Shown: piece after piece, positions 34,106-35,633 of the stretch
Numbering within the stretch: position 1 is the stretch's first letter
Layout: each line of letters starts with the position of its first letter
Assembly (NCBI RefSeq): GCF_001280225.1
Contig: NZ_CP009253.1
Span: 564,165 to 628,164 of the forward strand
Source of the DNA: Buchnera aphidicola (Aphis glycines)
GTDB taxonomy: Bacteria > Pseudomonadota > Gammaproteobacteria > Enterobacterales > Enterobacteriaceae
Length of the DNA stretch: 64,000 bases
Reading direction: 5' to 3'
Program-made: the position numbers and the translations under genes
Notes under the pieces: generated by a model
The model's database searches: none
Told to the model about the DNA's origin: nothing
Seen by the model: only the letters and a program-made list of their open reading frames with translations

Positions 34106-34984
34106 ATGATTTTTTATTGTTCTTTCAAATGGATAATTTTAGCTTTTTTATTAATTATTTCTCAAATAAAATTCAAAAAAAATATTGAAAAAAAAAATAT
34201 TAATCAAATAATATTTGCAAAAGAAATAAATCATTATCAAAAAAAAAAAAACGTCAATAAACAAAAAAAAATTGTCATATTAATAGACCCAGGACATGGT
34301 GGGCAAGATCCAGGATCAATTGGGCATAAAGGCCTTAAAGAAAAAGAAATCACCTTAAAAATTGCTATCAAGCTCAAAGAGTTATTGGACAGCAATAAAT
34401 TTTTTCAAGCGGTTTTAACTCGTAATAACGACTCTTATTTGTCTTTAAAAAAACGAAAAAATTTTTTAAAAAATCGAGAAGTAAGTTTATTACTATCTAT
34501 TCATGTAGATTCTGCACAACAATCATACGTATCAGGAACATCGATTTGGATTGTCTCAAACAACCGAATACATCGTGAAATTAACAGCTTTATAAATAAT
34601 AAAGAAGAAAACATTTATTTTTCCAAAAATATTGAAAATACCTTTAAGAGCAATCAAAACGATATATATTTAAAAAAAACTATTCTTGATTTACAATGTC
34701 ATTGTTTTCAATCTATAGGAACTGATTTATCAAAATATATATTTCAAGAATTTAAAAAAATCGTTAAAGTTAAAAAAATACAACCAAACTATGCTAGTCT
34801 AGGGATATTAAGCTCTATTAACACACCATCTATTTTAATTGAAACTGGATTCATTACAAATTTCGAAGAAGAAAGAAAATTAAAAACTATTTCCTATCAA
34901 AAAAAAGTTGCTAATGCTATTTATATTTCATTAAAAAATTATTTCCAAAATAAATATATATCGAATTTTAAAAATATTGATTAA
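34106..34984 (+). CDS. amiB: N-acetylmuramoyl-L-alanine amidase, AmiB-like, trimmed
   Basis: Zinc amidase that splits septal peptidoglycan. A hydrophobic signal/anchor lies at residues 8-22, followed by a Lys-rich stretch and the amidase_3 domain from about residue 55: DPGHGGQDPGSIG at 61-73, the Zn-binding Glu near 79, LLSIHVDSA near 132 and ILIETGFITN near 255. At 292 residues it has neither the N-terminal AMIN targeting domain nor the C-terminal LysM of E. coli AmiB (445). Position after orn and tRNA-Gly, with tsaE lost, supports amiB over amiA/amiC. A run of 13 A (34239-34251) lies in frame between anchor and catalytic domain. Confidence 0.88.
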   Translation: MIFYCSFKWIILAFLLIISQIKFKKNIEKKNINQIIFAKEINHYQKKKNVNKQKKIVILIDPGHGGQDPGSIGHKGLKEKEITLKIAIKLKELLDSNKFFQAVLTRNNDSYLSLKKRKNFLKNREVSLLLSIHVDSAQQSYVSGTSIWIVSNNRIHREINSFINNKEENIYFSKNIENTFKSNQNDIYLKKTILDLQCHCFQSIGTDLSKYIFQEFKKIVKVKKIQPNYASLGILSSINTPSILIETGFITNFEEERKLKTISYQKKVANAIYISLKNYFQNKYISNFKNID

Positions 34985-35386: not shown

Positions 35387-35633
35387 ATGTATCAAAATCA
35401 AAATAAAATTAGTTCAATGTATTTTAAAAAAAAAAAAAATTAAATTTAATAAATATAATTTGTTTACTATCTTATTAATCATAATTATTTTTTTAACTTT
35501 ATTTAATATATTTTCAAAGAAAAAAAATGAAACACATAAACAAGCGTTCATTCAAAAAAAAGAAGATGAAAACATACTACCTGCTAAACCAAAAGAAAGA
35601 TGGAAATATATTAAAAAATTAGAGAACTTATAA
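35387..35633 (+). CDS. ftsN: Miniature FtsN: tail, membrane segment and essential periplasmic peptide only; frame broken at A14
   Basis: ATG 35387 reads MYQNQNKISSMYFKKKK and then meets a run of 14 A (35426-35439), after which this frame stops. Dropping one A continues into IKFNKYNLFTILLIIII, a membrane helix (about residues 24-42), and ends with PAKPKERWKYIKKLENL and TAA at 35631. That peptide matches E. coli FtsN PPKPEERWRYIKELES, keeping W83, Y85 and L89 (here W72, Y74, L78), the residues known to activate septal synthesis. The product is 81 residues against 319: linker and SPOR domain are absent. Location just upstream of hslV matches E. coli ftsN-hslV-hslU. Whether it is translated depends on slippage at the A run or on a sequencing error there. 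Confidence 0.8.

Follow-up and report, generated by a model that had tools for sequence, protein, structure and literature searches.

Reduced forms of the division protein FtsN, of which a short peptide switches on septal wall synthesis in E. coli, have been described in symbiotic bacteria. According to the available part of PMC5013485, FtsN is cut to a very small portion in Serratia symbiotica SCc and STs, where it is compared with working truncations of the E. coli protein, and most such diminutions are called common in small genomes; a pared FtsN in Buchnera would therefore not be the first natural case. The ftsN gene of Candidatus Pantoea carbekii is called degraded in the accessible text of PMC5091035. 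For E. coli, residues W83, Y85 and L89 of FtsN are named as crucial (PMC6325244, in excerpt), and in the model presented in the available sections of PMC10390529 the segment W83-L89 lies against L86 and A90 of FtsL, L53 of FtsB and V86 and Y168 of FtsI. FtsL E88K is given, in those same sections of PMC10390529, among the E. coli variants able to do without FtsN. A 2023 review, in the portion accessible to us, scores both ftsN and ftsQ at 0% in 38 group A Buchnera genomes and infers that in obligate intracellular bacteria other ways of activating septal wall synthesis have replaced FtsN (PMC10591338). Our search of the open-access literature found no description of a Buchnera FtsN, and nothing on superfission FtsL in endosymbionts.

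Here we consider a short gene of Buchnera aphidicola (Aphis glycines), whose analysed genome is 639 kb in three contigs. The assignment to Buchnera is supported by contig C2, whose first 2500 bases share 87.9% identity with a plasmid of Buchnera from Aphis craccivora. The short gene is probably a working ftsN in which a membrane anchor, preceded by a short cytoplasmic tail and followed by the periplasmic E peptide, is all that remains, and the switch FtsN thus seems to have stayed in Buchnera, contrary to the scoring of the review.

A short gene upstream of hslV

The window, that is the whole stretch of DNA that we analysed, is 64,000 nucleotides long and has a GC content of 25%. Between a minus-strand gene, labelled rpmE in the initial annotation, and hslV, it carries on the plus strand a gene that extends from an ATG at 35387 to a stop codon (35387..35633 as a whole). 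The N-terminal cytoplasmic codons MYQNQNKISSMYF (35387..35425) are followed by an A-run 14 bases long, where the frame changes (35426..35439), then by a membrane anchor LFTILLIIIIFLTLFNIF (35460..35513), a weakly conserved spacer (35514..35576) and the E peptide LPAKPKERWKYIKKLENL (35577..35630), whose equivalent in E. coli FtsN begins near residue 75; the protein stops right after the peptide (stop codon 35631..35633), directly upstream of hslV. The ATG and the E peptide lie in different frames, and the joined reading gives 81 residues. Start, A-run, C-terminal frame and stop are all as the initial annotation described them, as is the length of 81 residues when the two frames are read as one protein. 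It had also placed the gene in the ftsN position of E. coli, and this is borne out by the locus and by the gene order of E. coli (rpmE, priA, cytR, ftsN, hslV, hslU in NC_000913); as priA and cytR separate rpmE from ftsN there, the feature shared is the place upstream of hslV. Another run, of 13 A (34239-34251 in the window), lies within a long frame (34106-34984) which we take to encode an amidase and which stays open through the run.

Using full-length E. coli FtsN, translated from NC_000913, as a phmmer query against all stop-to-stop segments of the window that reach 20 aa, 1441 in number, we obtained the reduced ftsN as the sole match at E up to 10 (E 7.1e-6), and chance similarity to FtsN was rejected on this result. 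With residues 71-105 of E. coli FtsN as query the same gene gave E 2e-5, the next best segment being at 2.6. The aligned peptides read LPPKPEERWRYIKELES in E. coli and LPAKPKERWKYIKKLEN in Buchnera, so that the match to the essential peptide, with equivalents of W83, Y85 and L89, could be confirmed both by the search and by the residues present. The gene lies directly upstream of hslV in 31/31 peptide-bearing genomes of the genus, and a single anchor near the N-terminus is predicted by hydropathy in all 31 (17-residue mean of at least 2.23).

The C-terminal SPOR domain, which belongs to a typical FtsN, is missing: the protein ends at the E peptide, and a SPOR profile that matched in 6/14 control genomes matched nothing in this genome (0/1), in agreement with the loss proposed at the outset. 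Curated models of full-length FtsN are not reached, with 27.6 bits against 525 for PRK10927.1 and 19.2 against 107.65 for TIGR02223; because of these scores the reduced gene is, as judged from its sequence, FtsN by descent and not by the full-length definition, and such low scores may explain why the Buchnera FtsN was missed. Pfam gave weak matches only, with no FtsN-type family among the 25 families listed, and a search of solved structures with our profile A2 at E up to 1 returned no FtsN chain, the best match (E 0.007) being an entry labelled TMHC2_E.

Conservation across Buchnera and the frame-breaking A-run

HslV was detected in 35/36 genomes of the genus and the stretch upstream could be read in all 35. 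The peptide is kept in 31/34 readable genomes, a count that leaves out G003, masked over the gene, and G029, masked over the whole region; 29 peptides were found by a first pattern, one carries V in the motif and one appeared after reversing the locus. The initial annotation had named lack of conservation in related Buchnera as grounds for dropping its proposal, and the alignment of the locus did not bring it. The peptide is absent from G004, G019 and G025, and a whole-genome profile scan found no convincing copy elsewhere; a relocated copy in these three was rejected, as nothing better than E 0.04 appeared at E up to 1. In none of the 36 genomes did a second match from the same scan go below 2.6e-3.

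In 31/31 genomes the protein ends in the same alignment column, nine residues past W, with the stop codon in the same place. W, Y, L and the final L are the invariant columns of the Buchnera peptide, and they shrink to W, Y and L when other enterobacteria are included (33-row alignment). Over 15 near pairs, dN/dS was 0.205 for the peptide, 0.758 for anchor and spacer together and 0.045 for hslV. Among these, the five pairs in which neither genome has an open frame gave 0.109 for the peptide. Purifying selection therefore acts on the peptide, between frame-broken genomes as well. Mean nucleotide identity over all pairs was 0.844 for the peptide, 0.574 for the 54 preceding bases, which are the last 54 of the spacer, and 0.437, near the chance level of 0.403, for the 54 that follow the stop. 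The gene might instead be a pseudogene, a decaying 5' part left where a full-length ftsN once stood, and we consider this very unlikely: the low dN/dS of the peptide, the one common end and the fall of identity to near chance just past the stop all argue against decay, even if a frame broken in 18/31 genomes, the loss in 3/34 and a nearly unconstrained anchor and spacer would be expected from it.

The reading frame is open from the upstream ATG to the stop in 13/31 genomes and not open in 18/31, where there are A-runs at or near the break or, in L016, no recognisable start. Since 13/31 does not exceed one third (p 0.20), the phase seems almost unconstrained at the run, and this leaves room for a sequencing error or for a start after the run. 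Long A-runs are error-prone, and with intact copies in 13/31 genomes the run length could be a fault of assembly or sequencing, the gene being open in the living cell with no slippage needed; the break, however, affects 18/31 genomes, some with only 7 to 11 A near it (for example L008, L010, L014, L035), which makes such an error rather unlikely. It is, moreover, compatible with a functional ftsN.

Translation from a start after the run, for instance from TTG 35460, would give only anchor and peptide. The window does contain an open frame from 35460, and the nearly free phase would suit such a start, but the codons beside the ATG are conserved as protein, with dN/dS of 0.254 (11 pairs) and 0.377 in five regrouped broken pairs, and we regard a late start as distinctly unlikely. 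This analysis of the N-terminus covers the 23/31 genomes with a similar, alignable start; the 8/31 left out include two open ones (L015, L028). The description of the protein as anchor plus peptide and nothing else has therefore to be amended: anchor and peptide stand, and the N-terminal cytoplasmic stretch, the part with which a typical FtsN binds FtsA, is conserved too where it can be aligned.

The gene could also work in relatives and be recently dead in this genome because its A-run changed in length. Its frame is indeed broken here and intact in 13/31 genomes; against this, broken-frame relatives keep the peptide under selection and in the peptide of the window W, Y and L as well as both flanks are intact, so that recent death appears improbable. 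In the reading that we prefer, a working gene, the broken-frame genomes would obtain enough protein by RNA polymerase slippage on the A-run. Coding sequence is conserved on both sides of the run, as is characteristic of poly(A) slippage, and the keeping of both ends while the phase between them drifts fits such a rescue. Transcription indels in homopolymer runs of Buchnera are reported to rise exponentially with run length (PMC5574713, available part).

Division partners and the predicted FtsL docking site

An FtsW/RodA family protein, an FtsI-type transpeptidase and FtsL were each found in 35/36 genomes of the genus, while FtsQ exceeded the cut-off in 0/36, with one weak match in G027. FtsB matched at E up to 0.1 in 36/36 genomes and exceeded the cut-off in 26/36; the match of G025, in a 559-residue frame, is probably not FtsB. 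Measured from Met in the 20 genomes read, FtsB has 66-77 residues in 17, 44 in G004, a genome without the FtsN peptide, 87 in G019 and 94 in G005, the frames of the last two including upstream codons; E. coli FtsB has 103. In 17/20 (L183-L202), Buchnera FtsB ends before the strand of the E. coli protein reported to bind FtsQ. The FtsW-family gene of G005 (G005:C1:229068-230134) is in two pieces with internal stops, and this genome retains the FtsN peptide.

E. coli FtsL 80-91, EWRNLILEENAL, corresponds in Buchnera to [EQTD]WRNLI[IL]EK[NY] followed by two residues. Past this hub the Buchnera protein continues for about 5 to 16 residues, against about 30 in most of the other enterobacteria read. 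FtsL and FtsB are thus cut back to about an anchor and the hub that serves as docking site of the peptide in the E. coli model. The equivalent of E. coli E88 is K in all 34 Buchnera hubs read, including that of the genome of the window (L043); among other enterobacteria (30 read of 51 with an FtsL match) it is E in 29/30 and K in one, G244. This non-Buchnera symbiont (L175, L114) has an FtsN that ends in ELENL together with its lysine at FtsL 88. In many Buchnera genomes (L122-L152) the anchor and hub of FtsL are in separate frames, a situation that resembles ftsN.

The FtsL hub is intact in 31/31 genomes with the peptide and lost or altered in 3/3 without it (Fisher p = 1.7e-4, kinship ignored): G025 has no FtsL, G004 has no recognisable hub and the hub of G019 reads WRELMIEKN. 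By hslV distance the nearest relative of each (L020, L015, L023) has the gene, so that the three losses look separate. G025 is also without FtsW and FtsI. G004 and G019 still have both, and the peptide can therefore be dispensed with. At the modelled contacts of FtsI we found Y168L in G004 and V84I and V86L in G019, changes that say little because FtsI of these genomes is divergent in general: it deviates in 9 and 6, respectively, of the 154 columns invariant among peptide genomes, single peptide-bearing genomes reach 8/162 in a leave-one-out control, and position 84 or 86 also varies in G012, G017 and G020. Taken together, conservation, selection, the shared end and a predicted FtsL docking site that is altered where the peptide is lost support the reading as a natural minimal FtsN that had been put forward from the window. 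Beyond that proposal, the most informative observations are the change of the FtsL hub with the peptide and the fact that FtsN, FtsL and FtsB have been shortened together in a genus where FtsQ is absent.

By analogy with the E. coli model, the peptide would dock with the FtsL hub on one side and the neck of FtsI on the other and, once docked, would hold FtsW-FtsI in the active state. The lysine at FtsL 88 might on its own make FtsN less necessary. With FtsN, FtsL and FtsB pared, FtsQ gone and the superfission lysine of FtsL fixed, the braking half of the control circuit would have been removed, and Buchnera could then represent a natural minimal septal-synthase switch in which the peptide has become a permanent clamp holding FtsI on FtsL and is no longer a late-arriving trigger; we offer this tentatively, at somewhat short of an even chance. 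If the gene works, it amounts to an evolutionary deletion experiment on the E. coli model, in which FtsN, FtsL and FtsB have been reduced to about the predicted docking hub, and it would provide an independent check on which contacts suffice as well as a small complex for reconstitution. Other short FtsN genes that are called degraded may be working genes.

Other symbionts and comparison with known systems

The Buchnera profile matched 199/246 genomes of the family at the loose limit of E up to 0.1, and the free-living matches, among those listed, are mostly full-length FtsN frames. With a wider profile, 24 of 78 chosen family genomes (small ones and ones without a match, picked from the 246) matched below 1e-4; as 17/24 had contributed rows to this profile, only seven are new finds. 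The peptide gene adjoins hslV in 19/24 loci and the SPOR region is absent in 17/24, as judged by length and by eye; in four genomes from outside the genus (G073, G123, G184, G244) the protein stops at the peptide itself. On the hslV tree (35 rows) 5 changes, or 4 without the row of G025, are required to account for proteins that end at the peptide; well-supported branches force 3, and a single origin occurs in 0/200 bootstrap trees, although hslV is short and of uneven composition, so that the number of changes is rough.

An FtsW/RodA-family protein is present in 24/24 genomes with the peptide versus 25/54 of the others, and in each of two other genera one member has both peptide and FtsW/RodA and another has neither (G195/G050; G053/G198). 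FtsL is present in 24/24 with the peptide versus 12/25 of those with FtsW/RodA but without it, and these 12 genomes indicate that FtsL can stay when FtsN goes. FtsL kept without the peptide in 12/25, the loss of the peptide in G004 and G019, the lysine at FtsL 88, the fast-evolving anchor and spacer (0.758) and the nearly free phase are the points that we count against a working gene.

A scan of named genome contigs, among which near relatives of the window may be absent, gave four loci, none of them from Buchnera: Serratia symbiotica, Sodalis sp. CWE, Pantoea carbekii and an Acidobacteriia MAG. In the last, a metagenome bin, 18 residues match the E peptide with 61% identity (L089:1501-1554), which may be due to chance or contamination.

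Compared with these systems, the Buchnera gene shares with E. coli ftsN (b3933) the place upstream of hslV, the membrane anchor and the E peptide with W83, Y85 and L89, whereas the E. coli protein has 319 aa, a long linker and a SPOR domain, against 81 residues in Buchnera if read as one. Endosymbiont genes with poly(A) frame breaks were reportedly described by Tamas et al. in 2008; they resemble the reduced ftsN in having a frame change at an A-run and both sides conserved, and differ in that the Buchnera case is known here from sequence alone. FtsN of Serratia symbiotica SCc and STs is, like that of Buchnera, pared to a very small portion, but in another lineage, and the two are likened from the available part of the published description; in S. 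symbiotica SCifornacula ftsN is a 276-codon frame. Candidatus Pantoea carbekii likewise has a short ftsN, of 118 codons, with QPKEKWKYITELDN; unlike that of Buchnera, it is one open frame and continues for 31 residues past W, as against nine.
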